Assembly (NCBI GenBank): GCA_026400395.1
Contig: JAPLPD010000101.1
Span: forward strand, 18,298 to 67,600
DNA from: Alphaproteobacteria bacterium
Lineage (GTDB): Bacteria > Pseudomonadota > Alphaproteobacteria > Rhizobiales > Xanthobacteraceae
Reading direction: 5' to 3'
DNA: 49,303 bases
The notes under the pieces are model-generated. The model did no database searches. It saw nothing but the letters and a program-made list of their open reading frames with translations, and was not told where the DNA came from. Shown one piece after another: positions 17,988-41,081 of this stretch. Within the stretch, counting starts at the first letter, position 1. Each line of letters opens with the position of its first letter. The translations under genes were made by a program, and so were the position numbers.

Positions 17988-18530
17988 TCACCGTCGCGCT
18001 TGGATCGATCGGGGGAACTGGCGGTCGCGGCCGAGGACGGCGATCGCGACGACCAACGGGACCAGCCAGGCAAGCCTGCTCTGGTAGCGGTCGTGCGGAT
18101 TCGACAACACGCCGCATATGACGGCGTTGCCGACCAGCGCCGCCAGCAGCACCGCCGCGAGCGCTGCGATCCGCCGGGAAGCTGCGGCCAGAATGATCGC
18201 CGGCAGCGCCGCGATCGCCAGCGCCTGCACCGGAATGTGGACGAGATTGGCCCAGCCGAAATTGAATGGTGACGTCGCCTGCCGGCCGGCGAGATAACCC
18301 GGCAGCGCCCCTGGCGCAAATCGTTCGAAAGTCCACTGGGTGTTCCAGTTCCAGGGCGTCAGGCCATCCCCGGTCGCGATCGCTGAGAACTGCTGGAGCG
18401 TGTCGAGTATAGCCGCCTTGAGATGCATGCCGGGGTAAAGCGTCAAGCTCTCGATAACAATTCGCCGAGCTTCGGGCTCGAATTGTTCAGGGCCGCCGAG
18501 CCTGTAGAACGGGCTTGTCTCGGCCCACAT
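17988..18530 (-). CDS. C-terminal fragment of a split polytopic membrane protein
   Basis: 180 codons opening with an ATG placed directly after the in-frame TAA (18531-18533) that ends the upstream frame. Contents: a periplasmic-type loop (PFYRLGGPEQFEPEARRIV, TPWNWNTQWTFERFAPG) and three or four hydrophobic helices. The frame is the same as that of 18531-19379 and the sequence reads as a natural continuation of it. The simplest view is one ~463-codon gene broken by a nonsense codon. Reinitiation at the TAA-ATG junction could still make this piece. Confidence 0.6.
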   Translation of the reverse strand: MWAETSPFYRLGGPEQFEPEARRIVIESLTLYPGMHLKAAILDTLQQFSAIATGDGLTPWNWNTQWTFERFAPGALPGYLAGRQATSPFNFGWANLVHIPVQALAIAALPAIILAAASRRIAALAAVLLAALVGNAVICGVLSNPHDRYQSRLAWLVPLVVAIAVLGRDRQFPRSIQARR

Positions 18531-28436: not shown

Positions 28437-28533
28437 TCGCGACCGGTGGATGGGTTGACGCGGGCGGCGCAGGCCGCCCGTTTTCCTTGTAGAGATGAGC
28501 CGGGGAACGATCGTCGCGCCTGAGGTTGGGGGA

Positions 28534-30867
28534 ATGACGCAACACGCTGGGGAGGGGCAGCGCTTTCCGCTGGCGGGAGCGTTCGGCCTCTACACCGTGG
28601 CCTTCCTGGCGCTGGCGTCGCCCTGGCTGTCGGGCGCGGTCGAAATTCCCTACGACGCCGCCTCGCAGTTCTATCCGCAGCTTGCCTTCCTCGCCCGCTC
28701 GCTGGCGGCCGGTCAGTCGCCATTCTGGACGCCGAACATTTTCGCCGGCTGGCCGCAGATTGCCGATCCGCAATCGCTGATCTTCTCCCCGCTTCATTTG
28801 GCCGTTGCGCTGCTGGTGCCGCGGCCGACGCCGTGGTTCGCCGACGTCGTCGTGTTCGTCATGCTCTATGCCGGCGGCGCGGGCATGATCATGTTCTTCC
28901 GCGACCGCGGCTGGCATGTGGGCGGCGCGCTGGTGGCGGCGCTGGCGTTCGCGTTCGGCGGATCGGCGGCTTCGCGCATCCAGCACGTCGGCCAGATCGA
29001 GAGTCTGGTGTTTTTTTCCCTGTCGTTGTGGTTGCTGGCGCGCGCGCTGGAGCGCTCGTCATGGCGGGCAGGCGTCGGCGCCGGTGTGTTCGCGGCGCTG
29101 ACTGTGCTCGGGCGGGATCAAGTGTCGCTGCTCGCGGTCTATGTGCTGAGCGGCCTTGTGCTGTGGCATTGGGCGTGTGGTGCGGGATGGCAGGCGCGGA
29201 TCGCGGCGAGCGCGAAGCCGCTGACCGCCGGCGCAATCACTGGCGCGATGATTGTTACCGTCCCGGTCACGCTGACCCTGCTGCTGGCAATACATTCCAA
29301 CCGCCCTGAAATCGGCTTTGCCGCTGCTGCCGGCGGCTCGCTGCATCCAGCCAATCTGCTGATGCTATTTTTCGCCGACGTATTCGGCGCATCGGATTTT
29401 AACCGTGAGCTTTGGGGCCCGCCTGGCTTTGCCTGGCACGATGCGTTCGGCCAGACCGGTCTCTACGTGGCGCAGAACACCGGGCAGATCTATTCGGGTG
29501 CCTTCGTCGCGGTCGCCGTGCTTGGCTTTGGCGTAGTGCGCGGTCTGCTGTGGTCGCGGGACATTCGCTTCTTCGCTTTGGCGCTCGCGCTCACGCTGCT
29601 CTATGCACTCGGCCGCTACACGCCGGTGTTCCAACTGATCTACGACATCTTGCCGGGAGTGACGCGCTTTCGCCGGCCGGCCGATGCGACCTTCGTGCTC
29701 GGTGCACTGCTTGCGCAGACTGCGGGATATCTCGTTCATCGCCTGCTGAGCGGATCGGTTCCGCCGCCGATGCGCTGGCAGCGCGCGGCAGAGATTTCGA
29801 TTGCTACGGCGCTCGTGGCGATCGCGGCCGGCCTCGCGCTGTGGGTCGGCGAATTGCGAAGCGCGGCGCTGCCGATCCTGTGGGGCTCAGGCTTCGCGGC
29901 GGCGGCGGTCGCGGTCATGGTGCTGGCGCGCCGCGTTGCGCCGCGCAGTGCGCTGGCGGCGGCGGCGGTGCTGGCGGCGTTCAGCGTCGCCGATTTAGCC
30001 TGGAACAACGCGCCCAACGAGTCGACCGGCCTCAAGCCCGCTCTCTATGAGGCGCTGCGGCCCGACACCACTGATGAAACCGTCACTCTGCTGAAAGCCA
30101 AGCTTAAGGCCGCCGCTGCGCCCGACCGCCGCGACCGTGTCGAACTGATCGGCATCGCCTACCACTGGCCGAACATCGGGCTGATCCACGATTTCGATCA
30201 CCTGTTCGGCCACAATCCCTTGCGCTTGATGGACTTCGAGAACGCAACGGCGGCGCCGGACACCGTCGCGGGCGTCGAGCAGCGGCAGTTTCCGCCGTTG
30301 ATGTCGTCCTATCGCTCGGTGCTGGAGAATCTATTCGGCGTGCGTTTCATCGCGGTCGGCGCGCCGGTGGAGAAGGTCGACAAGTCGCTGAAGCCCGGCG
30401 ATCTTGAATTCATCGCGCGCACCAAAGAAGCCCATGTCTATGAAAACCCGCGCGCGCTTCCGCGTGTCATGCTGGCGACGGAGTGGCGCGAGGCCGATTT
30501 CAGCGCGATGGTTCGCGATGGCCTATGGCCGGACGTCGATCCGCGCCGTGTGGTGCTGTTGGAAAGCGCTCCGGCCGGCGCGCCGAACGGTGGCGCGGGC
30601 GTCACGGCTCGCTTGGTGCGCTATGACAACACCGAGATCGTGATCGAAGCCGACGCGCCGGATGGCGGCTACGCGGTGCTCAACGACGTGTGGCATCCGT
30701 GGTGGCGCGCGACCGTGGACGGCAAGCCCACGGAGATATTGAAGGCCAACGTGCTGTTCCGTGCTGTCGTGGTGCCGCCCGGACGGCACGTCGTGCGCTT
30801 CACGTTTCATCCGTTCGCCGGCGCGTTCGCCGAGTTGAAGGGAATGCTCAGCGCGGTGTTGCGCTGA
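28534..30867 (+). CDS. Large YfhO-like polytopic membrane protein
   Basis: 777 residues from the ATG at 28534 (GAGG at suitable spacing; an ATG at 28495 is in frame). About 12 membrane helices fill residues 10-490. The first loop holds EIPYDAASQFYPQ, like the Asp-containing loop of GT-C glycosyltransferases, and the LPGVTRFRRPAD region follows later. The C-terminal ~280 residues are soluble and end in a YfhO-style module (LVRYDNTEIVIEADAPDGGYAVLNDVWHPWW...VDGKPTEI...FRAVVVPPGRHVV). YfhO relatives take part in glycosylation of surface polymers such as lipoteichoic acids in Gram-positives. The substrate here is unknown. It converges, with a 20-bp overlap, on the exported-protein gene of the OpgH operon. 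Confidence 0.8.
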   Translation: MTQHAGEGQRFPLAGAFGLYTVAFLALASPWLSGAVEIPYDAASQFYPQLAFLARSLAAGQSPFWTPNIFAGWPQIADPQSLIFSPLHLAVALLVPRPTPWFADVVVFVMLYAGGAGMIMFFRDRGWHVGGALVAALAFAFGGSAASRIQHVGQIESLVFFSLSLWLLARALERSSWRAGVGAGVFAALTVLGRDQVSLLAVYVLSGLVLWHWACGAGWQARIAASAKPLTAGAITGAMIVTVPVTLTLLLAIHSNRPEIGFAAAAGGSLHPANLLMLFFADVFGASDFNRELWGPPGFAWHDAFGQTGLYVAQNTGQIYSGAFVAVAVLGFGVVRGLLWSRDIRFFALALALTLLYALGRYTPVFQLIYDILPGVTRFRRPADATFVLGALLAQTAGYLVHRLLSGSVPPPMRWQRAAEISIATALVAIAAGLALWVGELRSAALPILWGSGFAAAAVAVMVLARRVAPRSALAAAAVLAAFSVADLAWNNAPNESTGLKPALYEALRPDTTDETVTLLKAKLKAAAAPDRRDRVELIGIAYHWPNIGLIHDFDHLFGHNPLRLMDFENATAAPDTVAGVEQRQFPPLMSSYRSVLENLFGVRFIAVGAPVEKVDKSLKPGDLEFIARTKEAHVYENPRALPRVMLATEWREADFSAMVRDGLWPDVDPRRVVLLESAPAGAPNGGAGVTARLVRYDNTEIVIEADAPDGGYAVLNDVWHPWWRATVDGKPTEILKANVLFRAVVVPPGRHVVRFTFHPFAGAFAELKGMLSAVLR

Positions 30868-31789
30868 AATCTCGAAACACCATATCCGGCGCGCTGGTAT
30901 TGTGGCGCGACGGAATGGTACGGCCCGCCCATAGCTCGGCGGCGCTGACGCTTCGGAACGGCATCACCGGCATTTGATTCCAAGCCGAGTCGTTCTTGCC
31001 CCGCCAGCCGATCTGCGAGACGTCGGCGTTACCATCCGTCACGAACATCGACCGCAAGGCGGCGAACGGCCGGTCCGCTGCGACCGGAGCGCTGAGGCCA
31101 ACGTCGAGTACGATGCGCTCCTGGTCGAGCTTCTCGAGGCGCAAGGTGGCGCTGCCGCCGCGTGCGAAATTCACTGTGAAGGTGCGCGTTGTCGGATCGA
31201 ACGCCACGTCCTTGATATCGACGAACGGACGGCCCGCCGTTTCCACCGGGCCGATCAAGAACGACGAGCCGTAGGCGCTCCAGCGCAGGTTCTGCGGCGG
31301 CAGCGGCCGCGCGCGCCAATAACCGTCGGCGGGATAGAGCACCAGCACCTCTTCGGCGCGCTCCTGGTAGCGCGTCCAGAGTTGCAACAGGTGAAAGCCG
31401 GTCTCGACGCGGTTGCCGACGCGCACCGTAACTTGGTTGCCCCGCCAAAAGCTCGGGAACGTCAGTCCGACAAGCTGCCATTCCTCGGTCTCGTAAATTG
31501 TCAGGCGGCGCTTCTCGAACTTGAACGACGGATCGTTCGACATGTCGCAGTTGGTGAAGTCGGGCGCCCAGTTGTCCTTGACGATGGTGCCCATATACGC
31601 TGGATGCGCGGCCTCGACGGTGAAGCGGCGGGCCTCGTTCGATTGCAGCTTGAGATAGACGTTGTCGGTCTCGGCGCAGCGGGTCGGCTCGCTGGCGTTG
31701 ATGACGTTGACCGCCAATGCATCGGCTGCGTGCGCGGCCGGCGCGCCAAGCAGCAGAAGCGCCGCGACGAAGCTAGGCAAGCCGCGCAT
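30848..31789 (-). CDS. Exported protein of unknown function, last gene of the OpgH operon
   Basis: 313 residues from the ATG at 31789, six bases after a GGGAG; an ATG two codons earlier is too close to it. A signal peptide covers residues ~1-21 (LPSFVAALLLLGAPAAHA). The mature part is beta-rich with conserved-looking Trp/Tyr (LQLWTRYQERAEEVLVLYPADGYW, FRSVSAAELWAGR). No family was recognised. Its start overlaps the end of the FkbM gene, so the two are coupled. OpgH normally works with periplasmic OpgG, which is absent, so this could be a functional partner in the periplasm. That is inference from position only. Confidence 0.75.
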   Translation of the reverse strand: MRGLPSFVAALLLLGAPAAHAADALAVNVINASEPTRCAETDNVYLKLQSNEARRFTVEAAHPAYMGTIVKDNWAPDFTNCDMSNDPSFKFEKRRLTIYETEEWQLVGLTFPSFWRGNQVTVRVGNRVETGFHLLQLWTRYQERAEEVLVLYPADGYWRARPLPPQNLRWSAYGSSFLIGPVETAGRPFVDIKDVAFDPTTRTFTVNFARGGSATLRLEKLDQERIVLDVGLSAPVAADRPFAALRSMFVTDGNADVSQIGWRGKNDSAWNQMPVMPFRSVSAAELWAGRTIPSRHNTSAPDMVFRDFSATPR

Positions 31790-32513
31790 ATACATCTCCC
31801 GAGTTGGCAGAATGCGGCAAAGCCGTGAGCCATGCCAGCATTGCATCGGTCGAGCGCCATTCGCCGAGAGTCTGGCTCTCTCCCAGCGCCGCGTTGAAGC
31901 GCGCGTAGCCCAGCGCCACGCAACGCTCGATGCAGGCGCGCGCTACGTCGCGCTGGATGGTAGTGAATTCGAACGACAGCGCCGCGACCGGCCGCGTCAG
32001 GCCCGCCAGCGCCTCTGCCTCGAAACCCTCCACGTCGATCTTGATGAACGTCGGTGTGCCCTGCGCGGCAATCAGCGCATCGAGCGTGGTGACCGGCACC
32101 TCGATCGATTTGTCCCACGCCTGCCCCTCCCAGCCAGCCGCGCCGTGTGCGGCGTCGACGAAAGCGCCCGATGCGGTGGAGACGGTCGGATTGGCGATAT
32201 TGATCTGCATCGCGATGGTGCCGGCTTTCCGCCCGACCGCCTTGGGCTCGATGGTAACGCCGCTGCTCAACGCGTAGAGCAGCCTCAGCGTTCGCACCAG
32301 CGCGGGCTGCGGCTCTACCGCGACGACACGCGCGTCAAGCCGGCGGAATGCGGCGATGCGGTCGCCAACGTGAGAGCCGATGTCGAAGACGAGATCGCCG
32401 GGATTGACGAACTGGCTGTACAGCCTGTCCATCGCTTCGGCGCGGCCGCGGTCGCGGTAGTACACGCCGAGCGATCGCATCACTCCGCGTGCGGTTTGAA
32501 GGCCCTGCAGCAT
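31773..32513 (-). CDS. FkbM-family SAM-dependent methyltransferase
   Basis: 246 residues from the ATG at 32513. SAM-binding motif I is LVFDIGSHVGDR, the acidic residue that follows is in VVAVEPQPALV, and the FkbM core TFIKIDVEGFEAEALAG is clear. Members O-methylate sugars and polyketides. Placed between opgH (4 bp upstream) and an exported-protein gene (16-bp overlap), it may methylate a periplasmic glucan or its precursor. It is cytosolic: no signal or membrane segment. Confidence 0.88.
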   Translation of the reverse strand: MLQGLQTARGVMRSLGVYYRDRGRAEAMDRLYSQFVNPGDLVFDIGSHVGDRIAAFRRLDARVVAVEPQPALVRTLRLLYALSSGVTIEPKAVGRKAGTIAMQINIANPTVSTASGAFVDAAHGAAGWEGQAWDKSIEVPVTTLDALIAAQGTPTFIKIDVEGFEAEALAGLTRPVAALSFEFTTIQRDVARACIERCVALGYARFNAALGESQTLGEWRSTDAMLAWLTALPHSANSGDVYARLA

Positions 32514-32517
32514 GGCG

Positions 32518-34317
32518 CTACGCCGGCCGCGCGGCGGCGGTGACCGCGGGCAGTGCCAGCGCGGTGAGCGCCCGCGGCGGCGCGGTCTCCTCGGGCAGCC
32601 GGCCGATGCCAATGCGGGTTAGCAGCCGGCCGAGCGCGGGCCGGGCTGTGAACACCGCGAGCGGGATCGACAAAGCCGGGCCGCCGGCCAGCAGAAACGC
32701 GTAGACCAGTGCGTTCGGGTGAGTGGTGGCGACCAGTCCAAGCGAGGCCACGCCCAGGGCTGTGTGCGGCCACAACTGGTGCAGCGCTTGCGACCACGGA
32801 ACGGTGTGGTCGTCGCGCATCTGGCCGATCCAGCCGATCACCCGGCCAAACGGCAATCCAGCGAGGAACAACGTGTGGCAGACCCACATGATCGGCGACA
32901 ACAGAATGAAGAACACGGTCTCGGTCAGCACGCTGGAGAGAAACCGCGCGGTGCCGCCGAAGTTGCGGCGAAGCTGCGGCCGCGTCAGCACATCGATCAC
33001 GGTGGCGATCTTCGGCGCAAACCACATCACCAGTATTATGACGAGCAGAGCGCGGCCGGCGTCGGGGCGGATGAAGTCGGCCGGCACCGGCGTCGCAGCC
33101 AGCGCGAGTGTGCCGATGATCAGGAGCCCGATCCACGCCGGCGATCCCAAGAACATCAGCATGGCGAAGGCGAGTTGGAAACGGCTGACCGGTTTCAGGC
33201 CGGGCGTGAACAGAAAGTAGCCGTATTGCAGGGTGCCCTGGCACCAGCGTTGATCGCGCCGGATAAACTCGGTCAAAGTCGGCGGATTCTCCTCCCAGCC
33301 GAGGTCCTCCTCGGGCAGCACGCGCACATAGTAGCCGGCGCGTCGCATCAGCGCCGCCTCGATCTGGTCATGGCTCAGCACATGGCCGCCAAGCACTCCG
33401 CCGTCCGGCAATTTGGGGATGTGGCAATGGGCGAGGAACGGCGCGATGCGGATGATCGCGTTGTGTCCCCAGTACGGGCCACAGTCGCTCTGCCACCAGG
33501 CGCTGCCGATCGTCCATGAGCGCATGCCGAGCCGCATGCCGAATTGGAAAATCCGCGCGAAAGCGCTGGTCGATGGCATGCCGACGACCAGGCCTTGGAG
33601 GATTCCGAGCTTTGGATCGGCCTGGATCACCCGCACCATGCGCATGATCGCGGCGGCGGTCATGAAGCTATCGGTGTCGAGCGTGACGGCGAACTCGTGC
33701 TGGCCGCCCCAGCGCTCGCAGAAGTCCCAGAAATTTCCGGCCTTGAAGCCGGTGTTTTCGGTGCGGCGGCGGTAGGTCACCGGAATTCGGTCTCGCCATT
33801 GCGTGGCGAGCGCATCGAAGCCTGTCTGCTCAAGGGCGGCGATGTCCGGCTGGCTGGTGTCGCTTAGAACGTAAAGATGAAAGCGGCCCGCGGCGCCGGC
33901 GAGATCGATCTCCCGCATCATGGCGTCGAGATTGCGGATCACCCGGTCGGGTGGCTCGTTGCGAACGAAGATGGCGATCGCCGTCGATGCCGTGATCGGC
34001 TCGTCATTGCGCAGCCCGGCGACGGACGGCACCACGCTGGCGACCGGATCGCGGGCGAACCGCATGATGAAAAAGCCGATGGCTGCGTTCCAGAAGCCTA
34101 TCACCGACCACGGCATGGTGAGGCCGAAGAAGAGAAGGAGTAGCGCATTGGCCAGACCGAAGCCGCCGGCCGAGAGCGCGTAGCCCGCCAGCGCCATCAG
34201 GGTTGCGATGCTGGTTAGCACAAGGCACAGGAACAGCGCACGGCGCCCGACAATCCTGGCGTCGGAACCGTTAGTTAGCGGCAAATCCGTGATTCCGCGC
34301 CCCGACACGCCCAACAA
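32518..34317 (-). CDS. opgH: Glucans biosynthesis glucosyltransferase H
   Basis: 599 residues (start TTG 34317 right after AAGGAAG; a GTG at 34308 has better spacing). An inner-membrane GT2 processive glucosyltransferase that makes the beta-1,2 backbone of osmoregulated periplasmic glucans from UDP-glucose. The layout is two N-terminal helices, a cytosolic GT2 domain with FVRNEPPDRV, TLDTDSFM (DxD), EEDLGWEENPP and the Q-x-x-RW motif RRDQRWCQG, then about six C-terminal helices. E. coli OpgH is 847 residues; this is the shorter form lacking long cytosolic ends. The usual opgG partner is absent; instead an FkbM methyltransferase and an unknown exported protein follow. Confidence 0.92.
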   Translation of the reverse strand: MLGVSGRGITDLPLTNGSDARIVGRRALFLCLVLTSIATLMALAGYALSAGGFGLANALLLLFFGLTMPWSVIGFWNAAIGFFIMRFARDPVASVVPSVAGLRNDEPITASTAIAIFVRNEPPDRVIRNLDAMMREIDLAGAAGRFHLYVLSDTSQPDIAALEQTGFDALATQWRDRIPVTYRRRTENTGFKAGNFWDFCERWGGQHEFAVTLDTDSFMTAAAIMRMVRVIQADPKLGILQGLVVGMPSTSAFARIFQFGMRLGMRSWTIGSAWWQSDCGPYWGHNAIIRIAPFLAHCHIPKLPDGGVLGGHVLSHDQIEAALMRRAGYYVRVLPEEDLGWEENPPTLTEFIRRDQRWCQGTLQYGYFLFTPGLKPVSRFQLAFAMLMFLGSPAWIGLLIIGTLALAATPVPADFIRPDAGRALLVIILVMWFAPKIATVIDVLTRPQLRRNFGGTARFLSSVLTETVFFILLSPIMWVCHTLFLAGLPFGRVIGWIGQMRDDHTVPWSQALHQLWPHTALGVASLGLVATTHPNALVYAFLLAGGPALSIPLAVFTARPALGRLLTRIGIGRLPEETAPPRALTALALPAVTAAARPA

Positions 34318-34386: not shown

Positions 34387-35367
34387 GTGGCGGACGGCGG
34401 CGAGGTGGCGCAGGCGCTCTGGTATGTGGGACCGGGCCGGGCCGAAATCCGCGATGAGCGGCTGGCGCCGCTCGCGGACGGCCATGTGCGGGTCCGCGCG
34501 GTCCACGGCGCCATCAGCCGAGGCACCGAGGCGTTGATCGCCGCCGGCCGCGTGCCGGAAAGCGAACACCGGCGCATGCGTGCGCCGTTCATGGGCGGTG
34601 CGTTTCCGTTTCCAGTGAAGTACGGCTACGCCACGGTCGGCGTGATCGAGGCCGGGCCGGCCGCACTGGCCGGGCGTCCGGTGTTTGCGCTGCATCCGCA
34701 TCAGACCCGCTTCGACGTGCCGGCGGAGGCGGTGGCTCCGCTTCCGGCGGATATTCCGCTGTCGCGCGCCGTGCTGTCCGCGAACATGGAGACGGCGCTG
34801 AACGCGGTCTGGGATGCGGCGCCGGGCCCATCCGGGCGGATCGCCGTGGTCGGTGCCGGTGTGGTCGGCGCGCTGGTCGGGCTTCTCTGCGCGCGGATCG
34901 AAGGCGCCGAGGTCACGCTGGTCGATGTCGATCCGTCGCGCGCTGAACTGGCGCGGGCGCTCGGACTCAATTTCGCCGCGCCGGACGATGCGCCGGTCGA
35001 TTGCGCGTTTGTGTTTCACGCCAGCGCCAGCGCCGCCGGGCTGGCGACGGCGCTCACTGCCGCCGGCGACGAGGCGACCATCCTGGAATTGAGCTGGTAC
35101 GGCGCGGGAACCGTGGCGGCGCCGCTGGGCGGCGCATTCCACAGCCGGCGGCTGAAGCTCATATCGAGCCAGGTCGGCAAGGTGGCGCCATCGCACCGGG
35201 CGACGCACACCTACCGCCAGCGTCTCGACGCCGCGATCAAGCTCCTCGCCGATCCACGGCTTGATGTGCTGCTTGCGCCGGCCGTCGCGTTCCGCGACCT
35301 TCCGGCTCGGCTTCCCGATATCCTGAAACCCCGGAGCGGCGTACTCTGCCAGCTCATTACCTACTGA
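34387..35367 (+). CDS. MDR-superfamily dehydrogenase without zinc ligands
   Basis: 326 residues from the GTG at 34387 with AAGGAGAA upstream. It has a medium-chain dehydrogenase fold: GroES-like N-domain, then a Rossmann domain with GxGxxG-type GRIAVVGAGVVGALVGLL and acidic VDVDPSRAELA. The catalytic-zinc region reads AVHGAISRGTEALIA, with Ser-Arg-Gly-Thr-Glu replacing the Cys-Gly-x-Asp motif, and the structural four-Cys lobe is missing. That fits the zinc-independent, BchC-like branch of MDR reductases. It is the first gene of a tight operon with the PTPS-like gene (9 bp), GT4 and methyltransferase genes. The substrate is unknown, perhaps the side chain of a pterin-like product. Confidence 0.85.
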   Translation: MADGGEVAQALWYVGPGRAEIRDERLAPLADGHVRVRAVHGAISRGTEALIAAGRVPESEHRRMRAPFMGGAFPFPVKYGYATVGVIEAGPAALAGRPVFALHPHQTRFDVPAEAVAPLPADIPLSRAVLSANMETALNAVWDAAPGPSGRIAVVGAGVVGALVGLLCARIEGAEVTLVDVDPSRAELARALGLNFAAPDDAPVDCAFVFHASASAAGLATALTAAGDEATILELSWYGAGTVAAPLGGAFHSRRLKLISSQVGKVAPSHRATHTYRQRLDAAIKLLADPRLDVLLAPAVAFRDLPARLPDILKPRSGVLCQLITY

Positions 35368-35376
35368 GAGGCAACC

Positions 35377-35778
35377 TTGTTCACTGTTGAAGTCCGCGAT
35401 CACATCATGATCGCCCATTCGTTCCGCGGCGCGGTGTTCGGTCCGGCCCAGGCGCTGCACGGCGCGACCTTCATGGTCGATGCGGCGTTCATCGCCGATG
35501 AACTCGATACCAACGGCATCGTGGTCGATATCGGCCGCGCGCTGGATACGCTGAAAGAGGTGTTGCAGCCGCTGAACTACAAGAACCTCGATGACTTGCC
35601 GGAGTTCAAAGGCAAGAACACCACGACCGAGTTCCTGACCAAATACATCTTCGACCGGCTCGCACATCACGCCCGTGAAGGTGATCTCGGCCGGCCGGGC
35701 CGCGAGTTGAGCGCGATCCGCGTGTCGATCGGCGAATCGCATGTGGCGCGCGCCTCCTACGAGGCGCCGTTGTGGTGA
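35377..35778 (+). CDS. PTPS/QueD-like protein lacking canonical catalytic residues
   Basis: 133 residues from a TTG at 35377, spaced after GAGAGG. The T-fold of 6-pyruvoyl/6-carboxytetrahydropterin synthase is recognisable: IAHSFRG (first zinc His, H14), ALHGATFMVDAAF (H28), GIVVDIGRALDTLKEVLQPL, NTTTEFLTKYIF and the substrate Glu in GESHVARASYE. However, the usual HGH is HGA (A30), no Cys exists at the catalytic position before it, and the Asp-His dyad of LDHxxLN reads LNYKNLD (N67, Y68). Canonical triphosphate elimination is therefore doubtful. It may carry out a different step or bind a pterin. It overlaps the GT4 gene by 7 bp. Confidence 0.85.
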   Translation: MFTVEVRDHIMIAHSFRGAVFGPAQALHGATFMVDAAFIADELDTNGIVVDIGRALDTLKEVLQPLNYKNLDDLPEFKGKNTTTEFLTKYIFDRLAHHAREGDLGRPGRELSAIRVSIGESHVARASYEAPLW

Positions 35779-36824
35779 AGCGCGTCGCGTTCGCGGTGCC
35801 GGGCGATCTGGCGACGCCCACCGGCGGCTACGCCTACGACCGCCGCATGATCGCGGAACTGCAAAAGCTCGGCTGGCAGGTCGATGTGATCGAGTTGGGC
35901 GACGGCTTCCCGCGTCCGAGCCCGGCGACCAAGACGGCGGCGCATGACGCGCTTGCCGCCGTGGCGAAGGATTGCCCCATCGTCATCGACGGGCTGGCGT
36001 TCGGGGTTCTGCCGGAGGCGGCCAAGGCGTTGCATGACGGCCATCTACTGCTCGCCCTGGTGCATCATCCGCTGGCGCTGGAGACGGGACTTCCGCCCGC
36101 CGACGCGGCGGCGTTCAAGGTCAGCGAATACGACGCACTGGCCGCCGCGCACGGTGTCGTGGTCACAAGTCCATCGACCTCGAAGCTTCTGATCGACGAC
36201 TACGACGTGCCGCCCGACCTCGTCACGGTGGCCTGTCCGGGCACCGATCGCGGCACCATGGCGAAAGGCAGCAGCGATGGCATTGTGCGGCTGCTCGCAG
36301 TGGGCTCGGTGGTGCCGCGCAAAGGCTATGACGTGCTGATCCAGGCGCTGACGCCGCTGGCGGGCCGGGCGTGGCGTCTGACGATTGCCGGCGACCGGAC
36401 GCGCGACGAGGCGGCGGCGATGCAGCTCGACGCGGAAATTGTCGGCAGCGGTCTGGTCGGGCAGATCGAAGTGCTGGGTGCGCTGCCGGCGGATCGCATC
36501 GATGCGCTCTATGCGGCATCCGATGTGTTTGTGCTGCCGTCCCGCTTCGAGGGATACGGCATGGCGTTCGCCGAAGCGCTGGCGTACGGCTTGCCCGTCG
36601 TCGGCACGACGGCTGGCGCCATCCCCGACACGGTGCCACCCAACGCCGGCGTGCTCATCGAGCCGAACGACATTAAAGCGCTGACGCGCACGCTCCGGAT
36701 GCTGATCGATAATCCGAAGGAGCGGCTGTGGTTTGCCGCCGGCGCCCGCGAGGCCGGCGCGGCGTTACCGACGTGGCAGGACTCGGCGAAATTACTGGCC
36801 GGGGCGATCGAGGCGCTGGCATGA
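35772..36824 (+). CDS. GT4-family glycosyltransferase
   Basis: 350 residues from the GTG at 35772, overlapping the previous gene. It has the GT-B fold: acceptor-side N-domain (TPTGGYAYDRRMIAELQKLGW), the linker VACPGTDRG, donor domain VGSVVPRKGYDVLIQAL, and the GT4 C-terminal signature SRFEGYGMAFAEALAYGLPVVGT with the EX7E pattern. It transfers a sugar from a nucleotide-sugar donor to an unknown acceptor in the cytosol. In this operon the acceptor could be a GTP-derived small molecule rather than a polysaccharide, because no polymer export genes are near. That is inference. Confidence 0.88.
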   Translation: MVKRVAFAVPGDLATPTGGYAYDRRMIAELQKLGWQVDVIELGDGFPRPSPATKTAAHDALAAVAKDCPIVIDGLAFGVLPEAAKALHDGHLLLALVHHPLALETGLPPADAAAFKVSEYDALAAAHGVVVTSPSTSKLLIDDYDVPPDLVTVACPGTDRGTMAKGSSDGIVRLLAVGSVVPRKGYDVLIQALTPLAGRAWRLTIAGDRTRDEAAAMQLDAEIVGSGLVGQIEVLGALPADRIDALYAASDVFVLPSRFEGYGMAFAEALAYGLPVVGTTAGAIPDTVPPNAGVLIEPNDIKALTRTLRMLIDNPKERLWFAAGAREAGAALPTWQDSAKLLAGAIEALA

Positions 36825-37621
36825 GCTTCAGCGCTACCTGGCTTGAACTGCGCGAGCCCTACGATCGCCAAGCGCGCAATCCGGCCGTGCTGGACGCGGT
36901 GGTGGCGGCGCTTGCCGGGCGTTCTTCGGTCACCATCGTCGATCTCGCCTGTGGCACGGGATCGACGTTCCGCGCACTCAGTCCGCGGATCAAGGCGCGG
37001 CAAAGCTGGCGGCTGATTGATAACGATCTCAGCCTGCTGGCGCGCGCTCCAGAGTCATCCGCCGACGCGGGCGTAGAGACCATCCCGATGGACCTCAACC
37101 GCGATCTGGAGGCGGCGTTCGACGATCCCGCCGATCTGATCGTCACGTCGGCACTGCTCGATCTGGTTTCCGACGAATGGCTGCAGCGGCTGGTGGTCGA
37201 GGCCGCGGTGCGGAATCTGCCGGTTCATGCGGCGCTCAGCTACGACGGACGCATCGCGTTCGATCCGGTCGATGCGGGCGACGCGAGGATCGTCGCCGCG
37301 ATCAATGCGCATCAGCGCACGGACAAAGGCTTCGGAGCGGCGCTCGGTCCGCAAGCCGGGGAACAGGCGATCAAGCGGTTCGAGCGGATCAATTACGCGG
37401 TGGTGCAGGGTGTGTCCGATTGGACCTTCGCGCCGCAGGACCGCGAGATCCAGATGGAAATACTCTCAGGATGGGCGACCGCCGTGCGCGAGACCGGCAA
37501 GCTGCCGCTGCCTGATGTGCTCGGCTGGCTGACGCGCCGGCGCGATTTCGTGGCCGCCGGCCGCTCGTCGATCCGCGTCGGTCACGTCGATTTTTTCGCC
37601 CGCCCAACCGGCACGCGCTGA
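36821..37621 (+). CDS. Class I SAM-dependent methyltransferase
   Basis: 266 residues. The ATG overlaps the upstream TGA (ATGA), a translational-coupling layout. SAM motif I is TIVDLACGTGSTFRAL, followed by the acidic post-I loop WRLIDNDLSLL and motif IV DLIVTSALLDLVSDEWL. The start MSFSATWLELREPYDRQARN resembles the N-cap of small-molecule methyltransferases. It is the last gene of the dehydrogenase/PTPS-like/GT4 operon. Its end overlaps the opposite-strand RibD-like gene by 40 bp. Confidence 0.85.
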   Translation: MSFSATWLELREPYDRQARNPAVLDAVVAALAGRSSVTIVDLACGTGSTFRALSPRIKARQSWRLIDNDLSLLARAPESSADAGVETIPMDLNRDLEAAFDDPADLIVTSALLDLVSDEWLQRLVVEAAVRNLPVHAALSYDGRIAFDPVDAGDARIVAAINAHQRTDKGFGAALGPQAGEQAIKRFERINYAVVQGVSDWTFAPQDREIQMEILSGWATAVRETGKLPLPDVLGWLTRRRDFVAAGRSSIRVGHVDFFARPTGTR

Positions 37622-38352
37622 GCCGATAAGTCGCAGTCGAACAGCACCTCGTCGTCAAGACGATGCACTTTCACCGGCATCAAGATCGCCTCGTCCACCC
37701 GCGCGATCGGCGGCAACGCAAAGCTGGACCGGCCGGAGCCGAGAATGATCGGCGCCACCGTGACGTGCAGCCGGTCGAGGCATTTCGCTGTGAGAAAGCG
37801 CGACACCGTATCGGCACCGCCTTCGATCAGCACGCGGCGCAGGCCACGGGCGGCCAGCGCCGACAGGATGTCCGGCGGCGCGAGTTGCCCGTCCATCTTG
37901 GCGACGCCGACGATCTCGATGTCGGCGGGCAAGGGCGGTTTGGCTCCCGCGCCGGTCACCACCAAACGGCGAACCCCGTCGTTGGCCAGGAGTTTGGCGC
38001 CGGACGGAAGCCGCCCGCGCGCGTCGATAACGACCCGTGCCGGTTGCGGACCGTTGACCCGACGCACCGTGAGCTGTGGATCGTCAGCCAGAGCGGTACC
38101 GACCCCGATCACGACCGCGTCGACCAGCGCCCGCAGCCGGTGCAGGTGGGCAAGCCCGGCCGGGCCGTTGATGTAGTGGGAATGACCGGTCTCGGTGGCG
38201 ACCCGGCCGTCCAGCGACTGGCCGATTTGGGCGACGACCATGAGGTCGTCGGCCCTTCCATGCCGCAACGGGCCGAACAGGCCCTCCCAAGGCCCCGGGA
38301 GAGGGAAGGTCAGTGCCCGAAAAGCTTCAGGAACGGAGGCCCAGGAATCCAT
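37582..38352 (-). CDS. RibD C-terminal-type (DHFR-fold) pyrimidine reductase
   Basis: 256 residues from the ATG at 38352; the ATG at 38436 would add 28 residues and cannot be excluded. The family signature is the RibD_C reductase: MVVAQIGQSLDGRVATETG, HYINGPAGLAHLHRLRALVDAVVIG, TALADDPQLTVRRV, VLIEGGADTVSRFL. In riboflavin synthesis this domain reduces the ribosyl side chain of the pyrimidine after deamination, with NADPH. The deaminase half of bifunctional RibD is absent. It is divergent from GTP cyclohydrolase II, whose product (after other steps) is its expected substrate class. Confidence 0.85.
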   Translation of the reverse strand: MDSWASVPEAFRALTFPLPGPWEGLFGPLRHGRADDLMVVAQIGQSLDGRVATETGHSHYINGPAGLAHLHRLRALVDAVVIGVGTALADDPQLTVRRVNGPQPARVVIDARGRLPSGAKLLANDGVRRLVVTGAGAKPPLPADIEIVGVAKMDGQLAPPDILSALAARGLRRVLIEGGADTVSRFLTAKCLDRLHVTVAPIILGSGRSSFALPPIARVDEAILMPVKVHRLDDEVLFDCDLSAQRVPVGRAKKST

Positions 38353-38556
38353 ATCCCGATTGTCATTTCCTGCGGCTAGGGTTGGCGGCTTTCGTCCCGG
38401 AGCTTCGCATCGCCGGACGGAAGACGGCGGAACCATCTCTTGCCATAATAGCTTATTGCGGTTGAAAGTGACATGGATCAATGGCTTAGGCGAATAATAA
38501 GGCCGGCCCGGTGTTCTTAGGTTGGGGTCGGCAAGGCAGTAAACGAGCGAGCATGA

Positions 38557-39726
38557 ATGCCAGATAAGAATGTTGGGCCTACGGGCTCCGTCCTGTTCGG
38601 GACCCGCGAGCAGGTGGGTGTCGGTCGAGGGATATCCGAGTTTCGGGCTGGCCGTCCGGTGGTGGTGACCGGTGCCGGTGAGGCGCTGCTTTGTCTTCCG
38701 GTCGAAGGGCTGACCAAAGAACGGCTGCACGCGTTTCGGGCGCTTAGCGCGCCGATCGCGCCGCGTCTGGTGCTAACCAGTTTGCGGGCGCAGTCGCTGG
38801 GGATCGAAACCGACCAACCCGTCGCGCTCGAGTTGCTGGCCGACATCGACGCGAACATGATCCTCGCTCTGGTTGCCGACGCCACATCCGATCATCAATT
38901 CGTGCCGGAGCCGGCGGTCGCCGCCGCGGTCGCGGCCATCGAACTGGTCAAGCTCGCGCAGGTTCTACCCGCGGTCCTGATCGCGGAGACCGTCGAGTCC
39001 GTCACCTCCAACTTCAACCCTGCCATCATCGCCGTCGAAGCGAGCGCCGTCGCGCGGTATCGCGAGACGGCCACGCAAACGCTCACCATTGCCGGGGAGG
39101 CCCATGTGCCGCTCAGCTCCGGCGTGCGCACGCGGTTCGTGGTGTTCCGCGACGCCTTCGGCGACGATCCGGTCGCGGTGATCGTTGGCACGCCGGATTT
39201 GTCGAAGCCGGTGCCGGTCCGTATCCACTCCGCGTGTCTCACCGGCGACGTGTTCGGTTCGCGGCGCTGCGATTGCGGCGATCAGTTGAAGCTTGCGCTT
39301 GCGCGGCTGCAGGAGGCCGGCGGCGGCGTCATCCTCTATCTCGCACAGGAGGGTCGCGGTGTCGGTCTCGCCAACAAGATGCGCACCTACAAGCTGCAGG
39401 ATGGCGGCCTCGACACGGTCGACGCCAACACCACGCTCGGCTTCGACGACGACGAGCGCGAGTATGGCGTCGCGGTCCGCATGCTGCAGATGCTGGGCTG
39501 CAGCCGGGTGGTGCTGCTCACCAACAATCCGGCCAAGCTCGAAGGTCTTGCTAAGGCCGGTATCGAGATTGCCGGCCGCATGCCGATCGAGACCCCGATC
39601 AACTCGGACAACCGCCGCTACTTGACGGCGAAGGCGTCGCGCGCCGGCCATCAGCTTCGGCATGTGATGGCATCGATCGCCGGGCATTCCGAAAGCGATG
39701 ACAAGGAGACCGGCCTGGTGCCTTGA
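38557..39726 (+). CDS. ribA: GTP cyclohydrolase II with degenerate N-terminal domain
   Basis: 389 residues. The C-terminal ~200 residues are a complete GTP cyclohydrolase II: zinc motif HSACLTGDVFGSRRCDCGDQL, substrate loop AQEGRGVGLANKMRTYKLQD (with the active-site Tyr), ANTTLGFDDDEREYGVA and the closing NNPAKLEGL...NRRYLTAKA. It opens GTP, releasing formate and pyrophosphate, to give 2,5-diamino-6-ribosylamino-pyrimidinone phosphate. Residues 1 to ~180 resemble the position of a DHBP-synthase domain but lack its acidic active-site signature, so RibB activity is not expected. It starts the rightward operon with cytochrome b561 and creatininase genes. Confidence 0.92.
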   Translation: MPDKNVGPTGSVLFGTREQVGVGRGISEFRAGRPVVVTGAGEALLCLPVEGLTKERLHAFRALSAPIAPRLVLTSLRAQSLGIETDQPVALELLADIDANMILALVADATSDHQFVPEPAVAAAVAAIELVKLAQVLPAVLIAETVESVTSNFNPAIIAVEASAVARYRETATQTLTIAGEAHVPLSSGVRTRFVVFRDAFGDDPVAVIVGTPDLSKPVPVRIHSACLTGDVFGSRRCDCGDQLKLALARLQEAGGGVILYLAQEGRGVGLANKMRTYKLQDGGLDTVDANTTLGFDDDEREYGVAVRMLQMLGCSRVVLLTNNPAKLEGLAKAGIEIAGRMPIETPINSDNRRYLTAKASRAGHQLRHVMASIAGHSESDDKETGLVP

Positions 39727-39746
39727 GGCCGGGACCGGCGAGGACG

Positions 39747-40268
39747 ATGACTTACACGCTCACCGCGCGCGTCCTTCACTGGGTCATTGCGGCCCTCGTT
39801 CTCGCCTTGATTCCGGTCGGCATCGCCATCGCCAACGTCGATTTCGGCCCCTGGCAGAACACGCTCTACGATCTGCACCGCTCGACCGGTACGCTGGTGC
39901 TGTTGCTCATGGTCGTCCGGCTGTGCTGGCGTCTGACCCATCCGGCGCCGCCGCTGCCGCAGGACCTGCAGGCGCTGCAGCGGTTCGCCGCCCACGCCAC
40001 GCATTTCACGCTCTATGGACTGGTGATCGCCCAGACGATTGTCGGCTGGATTGCCACATCTGCCTACCGCGCACCGATCCGGGTGTTTTGGCTGTTCAAT
40101 CTGCCGCCGATCTGGCGCGAGGACCGCGTCTTCTCGGAGACGATGTTTGGCGCGCATAAACTCATAGGCATCACACTTGCGTGCATGCTCGGCGCTCACA
40201 TCGGGGCCGCGCTGTACCACCATTTCATCCGCAAGGACCAGATCCTGATGCGCATGGTACGCGGCTAA
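39747..40268 (+). CDS. Cytochrome b561-type membrane protein
   Basis: 173 residues from the ATG at 39747 (GAGGA close upstream; a TTG at 39723 overlaps ribA). Four membrane helices with paired heme-b His: ARVLHWVIA in helix 1, DLHRSTG before helix 2, THFTLYG in helix 3 and GAHKLIG plus AHIGAALYHH near helix 4. This fits the bacterial CybB/b561 family, which passes electrons between the quinone pool and periplasmic or membrane partners. It lies between ribA and the creatininase gene (3 bp from the latter). Its connection to their pathway is unknown. Confidence 0.88.
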   Translation: MTYTLTARVLHWVIAALVLALIPVGIAIANVDFGPWQNTLYDLHRSTGTLVLLLMVVRLCWRLTHPAPPLPQDLQALQRFAAHATHFTLYGLVIAQTIVGWIATSAYRAPIRVFWLFNLPPIWREDRVFSETMFGAHKLIGITLACMLGAHIGAALYHHFIRKDQILMRMVRG

Positions 40269-40271
40269 CCG

Positions 40272-41081
40272 ATGGCTGGCCCCGCAGACAGCCGCACGAT
40301 CGGCGACCTCACGTTCCAGGAGGTGAACACGGCGTTGAGCGCCAGTTCGATCCTCTGTCTGCCGATGGGCTCAATGGAGCAGCATGGACCGCATCTGCCG
40401 CTCAACACCGACACCGTGCTGGCCGAGGCGTTTACCGCGCGCATCGTCGAACGCTGGGGCGAGGCATACGACCTGTGGCGGCTGCCGCCGGTCGCGGCCG
40501 GGCTGTCACGGGAGCACGAATGGGCGCCCGGCACACTGTCGCTGTCCGTCGGTGGCCTGACGCAGATGCTGCGCGAGCTTTGCCGCGTGATCGTACGCGC
40601 GCTGCCGGCCCGCAATCTGCTGATCGTGAACGGGCATGGCGGCAACCGTGGCCTGCTCGAAGTGCTGGGGTGCGAACTGCGCGGCGACTTCGGGCTGAAC
40701 GTCTGCGCGCTGCATCTCGGTGCCATGATCAGTCCAGTGGCCGACGCGGCTATCCCCGAAATCCACGCCGGGATGGATGAGACTTCGGTGATGCTGGCGC
40801 TGGCTCCCGGTCTGGTCCGCAGCGACCGGATCGGCCAATTGATAAACCCGCCGAATGGAACCGCCGTCCAGGCGGCGATCCTCGACCCGACGACCAGTTG
40901 GCCCTGGTCGAGCGGCGACAAGAGGATCGCGGATTTGGGCGTGATTGGCGACGCAGCCAAGGCGTCCGCCGGGCATGGCCATTCGATCGTGACACGGGTG
41001 GTCGAGGGCGCAGGGGCGGTGCTCAAGCAGCTCCGCGACAATCAGCCTGGGGCGGCGGGTGCCGCCCCCCGACAGCCCTAA
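40272..41081 (+). CDS. Creatininase-family amidohydrolase
   Basis: 269 residues. The family's metal site is intact: Glu and His in GSMEQHGPHLPLNTD together with its last Asp, His in IVNGHGGN, and Glu in HAGMDETS. Members hydrolyse cyclic or linear amides: creatinine, the formamide FAPy (ArfB in archaeal flavin/F420 synthesis), mycofactocin precursor peptide (MftE). Because it lies in one operon with GTP cyclohydrolase II, a role on a GTP-derived pyrimidine or pterin amide is more likely than creatinine degradation. That is inference from context. Confidence 0.88.
   Translation: MAGPADSRTIGDLTFQEVNTALSASSILCLPMGSMEQHGPHLPLNTDTVLAEAFTARIVERWGEAYDLWRLPPVAAGLSREHEWAPGTLSLSVGGLTQMLRELCRVIVRALPARNLLIVNGHGGNRGLLEVLGCELRGDFGLNVCALHLGAMISPVADAAIPEIHAGMDETSVMLALAPGLVRSDRIGQLINPPNGTAVQAAILDPTTSWPWSSGDKRIADLGVIGDAAKASAGHGHSIVTRVVEGAGAVLKQLRDNQPGAAGAAPRQP

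Follow-up and report, generated by a model that had tools for sequence, protein, structure and literature searches.

The described systems closest to the gene cluster analysed here are riboflavin biosynthesis, the enzymes 6-pyruvoyltetrahydropterin synthase (PTPS) and QueD, the pterin glycosides of cyanobacteria, and the osmoregulated glucan synthase OpgH/MdoH. The cluster comes from an alphaproteobacterium of the family Xanthobacteraceae (assembly GCA_026400395.1, contig JAPLPD010000101.1) and was studied in a stretch of 49,303 nucleotides (positions 18,298 to 67,600 of the contig), which is called the window and to which all coordinates refer. Like the riboflavin pathway (RibA, RibD, BrbF), the cluster encodes a GTP cyclohydrolase II (GCH II) and a reductase of the RibD type, and a formamidase from the creatininase family may be common to both; unlike that pathway, the cluster has no deaminase domain, and no match to RibB or RibE was obtained in 108 related loci. 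Its PTPS-like protein belongs to the same Pfam family as PTPS and QueD and keeps their ring-binding glutamate, while it lacks the complete set of zinc histidines, the catalytic cysteine and, in the consensus, the Asp-His pair of these enzymes. This protein is orthologous to SCO6650 of Streptomyces coelicolor, which is labelled uncharacterized in the PDB (entry 3d7j). The cyanobacterial pterin glycosides join a GTP-derived ring to a sugar, as the cluster product would do if it were a pterin. To our knowledge their synthesis involves neither GCH II nor a phosphatidyltransferase or an MdoH-like enzyme. In an excerpt of PMC13259868 pterins are described as starting from GTP cyclohydrolase I (GCH I), while the cluster has GCH II. 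OpgH/MdoH is of the same GT2 family as a membrane enzyme of the cluster, which forms a separate clade.

The locus is best read as encoding a dedicated pathway, which would convert GTP into an aminopyrimidine or pterin that carries a sugar and a methyl group and is placed in the membrane or moved across it; judged from sequence, the probability of this reading is about one half. A dedicated cluster is supported by the conservation of the gene set over 109 loci and of the core order on haloarchaeal plasmids, by the reductase, GCH II and MdoH-like genes that track the cluster in 37 genomes, by the loss of PTPS catalytic residues while the glutamate is kept, and by the fact that the GT4 glycosyltransferase and the methyltransferase share one open reading frame (ORF) in some loci and that the former is nearest to enzymes glycosylating small polyols. 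It is also supported by the pairing of variant GCH II with a creatininase-family protein, since a formamidase acting on formamidopyrimidine (FAPy) is found in that family according to an excerpt of PMC9478397. The pathway cluster is real and conserved widely, and it is apparently undescribed; no description of it was found in a search confined to openly licensed PMC papers.

Conservation of the gene cluster across phyla

An initial annotation of the window had listed eight adjacent genes, and all eight were recovered at the same positions by Pfam and family models. The first four are on the plus strand and encode a medium-chain dehydrogenase/reductase (MDR) without zinc ligands (34387 to 35367; BchC-like at 32 bits, far under the BchC cut-off), the PTPS/QueD-like T-fold protein (35377 to 35778; Pfam PTPS, 77.7 bits), the GT4 glycosyltransferase (35772 to 36824; Pfam match) and an S-adenosylmethionine-dependent methyltransferase (36821 to 37621; Methyltransf_25, 30 bits). 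They had been described as overlapping or nearly touching, which agrees with the 9-bp gap between the MDR and PTPS-like genes and the successive overlaps of 7 and 4 bp. The RibD C-terminal-type reductase gene (37582 to 38352, minus strand; RibD_C, 143.7 bits) overlaps the methyltransferase gene at their 3′ ends; its start was placed at the Met at 38352, while the longest ORF extends to 38730. The genes for GCH II (38557 to 39726; GTP_cyclohydro2, 185 bits), cytochrome b561 (39747 to 40268, or from 39723 with the alternative start; Ni_hydr_CYTB, 102 bits) and a creatininase-family amidohydrolase (40272 to 41081; Creatininase, 175.5 bits) follow on the plus strand.

To assess conservation, genomes were probed with the window PTPS-like protein, and relatives above 80 bits were counted from the result tables. 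Such relatives were present in 36 of 289 alphaproteobacterial and 27 of 398 Pseudomonadota genomes, the source genome being counted in each, and in 9 of 296 genomes from the phylum of Streptomyces tendae. Among GTDB contigs at least 583 relatives were obtained. The best 80 of these at least 583 relatives, together with 8 plasmid loci, 20 fetched regions and the window itself, formed the set of 109 loci. Within it, L204 repeats L113, and L034 is close to the species of the window. Xanthobacter autotrophicus (L068) and Streptomyces tendae (L113) are among the carriers of the cluster. Two Streptomyces loci with a PTPS-like gene minus the rest of the cluster (L203 and L115, where the gene adjoins one for a MEKHLA-domain protein) were retained. 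The family models for neighbouring genes were trained on loci from the same set, and a gene was counted as near when its distance from the PTPS gene was at most 8.5 kb; since many loci end at contig edges, counts were also made for the 81 loci with 8 kb on either side (full-flank loci).

Among the 109 loci, the PTPS gene was accompanied by genes for MDR in 102, GT4 in 104, the RibD-type reductase in 70 and RibA, that is GCH II, in 49. The methyltransferase was a separate ORF in 88 loci and was fused with GT4 in one ORF in 8 more. In the full-flank loci the counts were 77 for MDR, 76 for GT4, 69 for the methyltransferase, 53 for RibD and 43 for RibA. A core of MDR, PTPS, GT4 and methyltransferase genes, usually with the reductase and often with GCH II, is found in alpha-, beta- and gammaproteobacteria and in actinomycetes. 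The less frequent neighbours in the 109 loci were cytochrome b561 (28), creatininase (25), an FkbM-family methyltransferase (24), the protein called c13 (15) and a YfhO-like protein (7), while the membrane genes were represented by an MdoH-like enzyme (57), a CDP-alcohol phosphatidyltransferase (37) and a flippase-like protein (33).

The core is also found outside bacteria. A Haloarcula plasmid carries the MDR, PTPS, GT4 and methyltransferase-like genes in the same order, with genes for a creatininase and a CDP-alcohol phosphatidyltransferase nearby, and the four-gene core is repeated on a Halomicrococcus plasmid. The family models matched these two plasmids with E-values of at most 3e-69 for MDR, about 1e-58 for GT4, about 1e-25 for the methyltransferase, and 3e-15 and 3e-11 for PTPS. 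The haloarchaeal PTPS proteins retain an HxH motif, unlike the bacterial cluster copies. The recurrence of the same genes across phyla and on haloarchaeal plasmids suggests that their association is more than chance, and it contradicts the possibility, raised with the initial annotation, that the neighbourhood is confined to close relatives. The conserved region extends beyond the eight genes: upstream of MDR it reaches the MdoH-like gene, and in fewer loci the FkbM, c13 and YfhO-like genes. The eight genes proposed earlier and their operon-like spacing are confirmed, while the MdoH-like gene, or the phosphatidyltransferase and flippase-like genes which replace it elsewhere, had been overlooked.

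Co-occurrence in Hyphomicrobiales genomes and the relation to riboflavin synthesis

The distribution of the individual genes was compared in 37 Hyphomicrobiales genomes, of which 13 have the PTPS-like gene and 24 lack it; the latter were of the same family and order, among the matches listed, and four of them (G632, G701, G869 and G958) had a weak PTPS-family match of at most 33 bits and were scored as clusterless. In these counts, which are uncorrected for kinship, 9 of the 13 cluster genomes had canonical GCH II (159 bits or more), 11 had the cluster-type RibD reductase (188 bits or more) and 10 had the MdoH-like enzyme of the cluster type (428 bits or more); of the 24 clusterless genomes one (G639) had canonical GCH II and none had either of the other two. 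The distance to the PTPS gene is at most 5 kb for seven of the nine GCH II genes and 15 kb for one, and the ninth is on another contig.

The genome of the window has separate riboflavin genes, for which the initial annotation had proposed a check: contig C123 encodes a full RibD (TIGR00326, 325 bits) beside the riboflavin synthase RibE (222 bits). Its RibBA (contig C76) has an intact RibB half (DHBP_synthase, 260 bits) and a GCH II half without the zinc cysteines. Apart from the enzyme of the cluster, no canonical GCH II was obtained from this genome; the third GCH II-like gene, on contig C151 (L003), is of the PRK07198 family (742 bits). It had been considered that the cluster GCH II and reductase might be the sole riboflavin enzymes; this holds in so far as the genome yielded no second canonical GCH II, while full RibD and RibE are encoded elsewhere. 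All 27 RibBA proteins examined from the order (C76, L135-L154 and L209-L214), of which 23 are from clusterless genomes, were without the three zinc cysteines, which are retained in 10 of 10 canonical GCH II proteins. As RibBA is without the zinc cysteines and canonical GCH II was not found in 23 of the 24 clusterless genomes, these relatives probably begin riboflavin synthesis in another way. This is in agreement with an excerpt of PMC9478397, where a missing GTP cyclohydrolase of the riboflavin pathway is discussed, and the result bears on that question.

A riboflavin operon as the whole explanation of the cluster was rejected, as it had been in the initial annotation. Pfam found the RibD_C domain alone in the window reductase, and tblastn with the proteins of this genome (E ≤ 1e-4) gave no match to RibB or RibE and one weak match to the RibD deaminase domain (L191) in the 108 related loci, while full RibD and RibE lie elsewhere in the genome. 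Since no gene for RibB, RibE or the deaminase accompanies the cluster, the flavin-like product included among the earlier suggestions is less likely, while the proposal of a dedicated GTP-consuming cluster with glycosyl and methyl tailoring is retained.

GCH II, the creatininase-family protein and the opening of GTP

The window GCH II retains the zinc cysteine triad and Tyr278, which aligns with the catalytic tyrosine of the E. coli enzyme. Its N-terminal half has a RibB-like fold in the predicted structure, gave no match to the Pfam family DHBP_synthase and by eye does not contain the RibB acidic loop, so that this domain looks inactive. Fold matches of the cluster GCH II in the PDB also include entries named UTP cyclohydrolase.

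In S. coelicolor, a Tyr-to-Met change reportedly makes the GCH II SCO6655 stop at FAPy. Among the 49 GCH II copies in the cluster loci, 12 (11 of them distinct) have Met or Gln in place of the catalytic tyrosine, and a creatininase gene is nearby in all 12. The 35 copies with tyrosine are near a creatininase gene in 9 cases and not in 26, and the two remaining copies, one with Leu and one cut, are without it. All the Met or Gln copies are from named actinomycetes or from the phylum of Streptomyces tendae, and the association may reflect few evolutionary events; the two tyrosine copies inside that group (L099 and L185) are both without a creatininase gene. The window itself does not show the FAPy-type pairing, because the creatininase is present beside a GCH II that keeps Tyr278.

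According to an excerpt of PMC9478397, a creatininase-family protein has FAPy formamidase activity and one distant homologue failed to complement, and for this reason the activity cannot be transferred to the window protein, a candidate FAPy formamidase, without a test. The window protein scored 129 bits with the MftE model (cut-off 172) and 23.5 bits with the ArfB model (cut-off 180). With regard to a possible place in the BrbF clade, its 175.5 bits in the Creatininase family compare with at least 200 for most creatininases of its relatives. The creatininase as a constant member of the cluster is a weakened proposal, as it is near the core in 25 of the 109 loci.

The PTPS-like protein and the tailoring enzymes

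The orthology of the PTPS-like protein with SCO6650 is indicated by a match with E = 1.4e-44 over 131 residues (2.2e-61 with the profile). The functional residues of PTPS are three zinc histidines, a catalytic cysteine, an Asp-His pair and a glutamate that binds the ring. In all of the 22 aligned PTPS-like sequences HGA replaces HGH and alanine replaces the cysteine, and the consensus has Asn-Tyr instead of the Asp-His pair; Glu120 is invariant and the TTE motif is retained. Hence, the protein is unlikely to carry out PTPS chemistry, and it could bind a 2-amino-4-oxo-pyrimidine. The placement of this protein in the PTPS/QueD family by the initial annotation was correct, while the loss of catalytic residues and the GCH II/creatininase pairing had escaped it. 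A role in queuosine synthesis was rejected given that the catalytic residues are lost and that 8 of the 22 cluster genomes searched have another PTPS match of more than 100 bits; in the genome of the window the PTPS-like gene is the sole PTPS match. No gene named queC or queE occurs in 11 annotated plasmid stretches, for which no dedicated search was run.

No cysteine is found among the columns of the MDR family conserved at 90%, consistent with the earlier description of this dehydrogenase as devoid of zinc ligands, and the sequence SRGTE is conserved. The nearest solved relative of the GT4 protein is the D-inositol 3-phosphate glycosyltransferase 7qsg, with MshA- and PimB-type enzymes; among solved structures it is thus nearest to a glycosyltransferase acting on a small polyol.

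The membrane module

Directly upstream of MDR, on the minus strand, the window encodes a membrane GT2 glycosyltransferase of a cluster-specific MdoH-like clade (32518 to 34317). It scored 685.9 bits with the model NF003963, below the cut-off of 884, and exceeded the thresholds of two further MdoH models, while the other MdoH-like copies of the 37 genomes reach at most 308 bits against the cluster clade. In the 81 full-flank loci, the MdoH-like gene is alone in 37, the CDP-alcohol phosphatidyltransferase gene alone in 32, both are present in 2 and neither in 10. The flippase-like gene always accompanies the phosphatidyltransferase (30 of 30 full-flank loci), and occurs without it in L093, where the flank is incomplete. 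Both modules occupy the same place, divergent beside MDR, in 53 of 57 and 32 of 37 loci, respectively, that also have MDR. The phosphatidyltransferase retains the motif DxxDGxxAR...GxxxDxxxD of CDP-alcohol phosphatidyltransferases. It is mainly this swap of membrane modules at one position which suggests that the product is placed in or across the membrane.

Proposed pathway and alternative explanations

From the gene content we infer a route in which GCH II would open GTP to 2,5-diamino-6-ribosylamino-pyrimidinone phosphate, with a creatininase-family formamidase completing the opening where GCH II is of the Met or Gln type. The RibD-type reductase, which no deaminase accompanies, would then convert the non-deaminated intermediate into its ribityl form; reduction before deamination is the archaeal order of steps. 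The PTPS-like T-fold protein, probably no longer a PTPS, may hold the 2-amino-4-oxo ring, while the zinc-less MDR may alter the side chain, possibly by an oxidation that lets the ring close to a pterin. GT4 would attach a sugar and the methyltransferase would methylate the sugar or the ring. Here, as in many other alpha- and betaproteobacteria, the MdoH-like GT2 would insert the conjugate into the membrane or carry it across, a role that elsewhere would fall to the CDP-alcohol phosphatidyltransferase with the flippase-like protein; cytochrome b561 is a possible redox partner. In a more specific form, which we consider doubtful, this would be a pterin route without GCH I that spans domains of life, with GCH II, ribityl reduction, MDR oxidation at C2′ and ring closure by the 5-amino group on the PTPS-like scaffold, and the glycosylated, methylated pterin would serve as the head group of a membrane lipid or as an envelope redox cofactor for b561. 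If the pathway is real, it would be a widespread small-molecule route from GTP, undescribed in the literature searched and marked by an unusual exchange of one membrane module for another; it would provide a function for the SCO6650 fold, and the cluster supplies testable genes.

Several observations weigh against this pathway. The product class is read from gene content alone, cytochrome b561 is a common gene, and the creatininase gene, besides its low frequency near the core (it is not near the PTPS gene in G785 and G801), also stands beside 9 of the 35 tyrosine-type GCH II copies. The substrate of the reductase is not decidable from its sequence, which is no closer to the archaeal reductase model (105 bits) than the housekeeping RibD (123 bits). 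RibA is near the core in just 49 and RibD in 70 of the 109 loci, 4 of the 13 cluster genomes are without canonical GCH II and 2 without the cluster-type RibD, and the family models gave no match to RibA or RibD in either haloarchaeal stretch; the link to GTP is therefore not universal. The 10 full-flank loci with neither membrane module count in the same direction.

Those 10 loci would be expected if the product were instead a soluble, secreted glycoside of a pterin or aminopyrimidine, acting as a UV screen, signal or antioxidant, and if the membrane genes were exporters or unrelated. The pterin glycosides known in cyanobacteria (excerpt of PMC13259868) offer a precedent for it, but a membrane module is near the core in 71 of the 81 full-flank loci and the flippase-like gene is tied to the phosphatidyltransferase throughout them, and we regard a soluble product as rather unlikely. 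At the other extreme, the locus could make a membrane glycan or glycolipid, with GCH II, the reductase and the creatininase as chance neighbours supplying riboflavin and the PTPS-like protein as a scaffold. The sole canonical GCH II and the single creatininase of this genome do lie in the cluster, and the GCH II half of RibBA is without zinc cysteines, which favours such a role in riboflavin supply. However, the cluster-type RibD is restricted to cluster genomes, as is canonical GCH II except in G639, while RibBA-like and RibD-like matches are still present in 24 of 24 clusterless genomes each, and GCH II and the reductase recur near the core in other phyla. This glycan or glycolipid reading appears improbable.

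The same facts about this genome leave more room for a double duty, in which the cluster GCH II and creatininase supply riboflavin synthesis as well as the cluster product. This genome (G000) yielded no second canonical GCH II, nor any creatininase of at least 200 bits, versus one in each of the 12 other cluster genomes. On the other hand, the assembly is in 369 contigs and a gene may be missing from it, and relatives without canonical GCH II presumably begin riboflavin by another way, so that a double duty is best taken as a tentative suggestion.

Flanking genes and other observations

Three more genes lie upstream of the MdoH-like gene. The FkbM-family methyltransferase (31773 to 32513, the start being inferred, minus strand) was matched by Pfam Methyltransf_21 with 52.5 bits and by TIGR01444 with 82.6 bits. 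It is followed, at 30848 to 31846 on the minus strand, by c13, an all-beta protein of unknown family that looks secreted by eye, for which Pfam gave nothing at E ≤ 0.01, nor did a fold search of the PDB with the predicted model (pLDDT 79.5) at E ≤ 0.001. The YfhO-like membrane protein of 790 residues (28495 to 30867, plus strand; Pfam YfhO, 34.8 bits) is an occasional neighbour, and the membership of both c13 and the YfhO-like gene in the cluster is uncertain.

A YceI-family gene is near the cluster in nine loci, of which two are alphaproteobacterial, three gammaproteobacterial and four from other Pseudomonadota (L084, L094, L105, L106, L112, L192, L197, L199 and L200). A gene annotated as a sulfatase, or weakly similar to one, is near the cluster in L118, L205 and L206, which lie on two rhizobial plasmids and one haloarchaeal plasmid.

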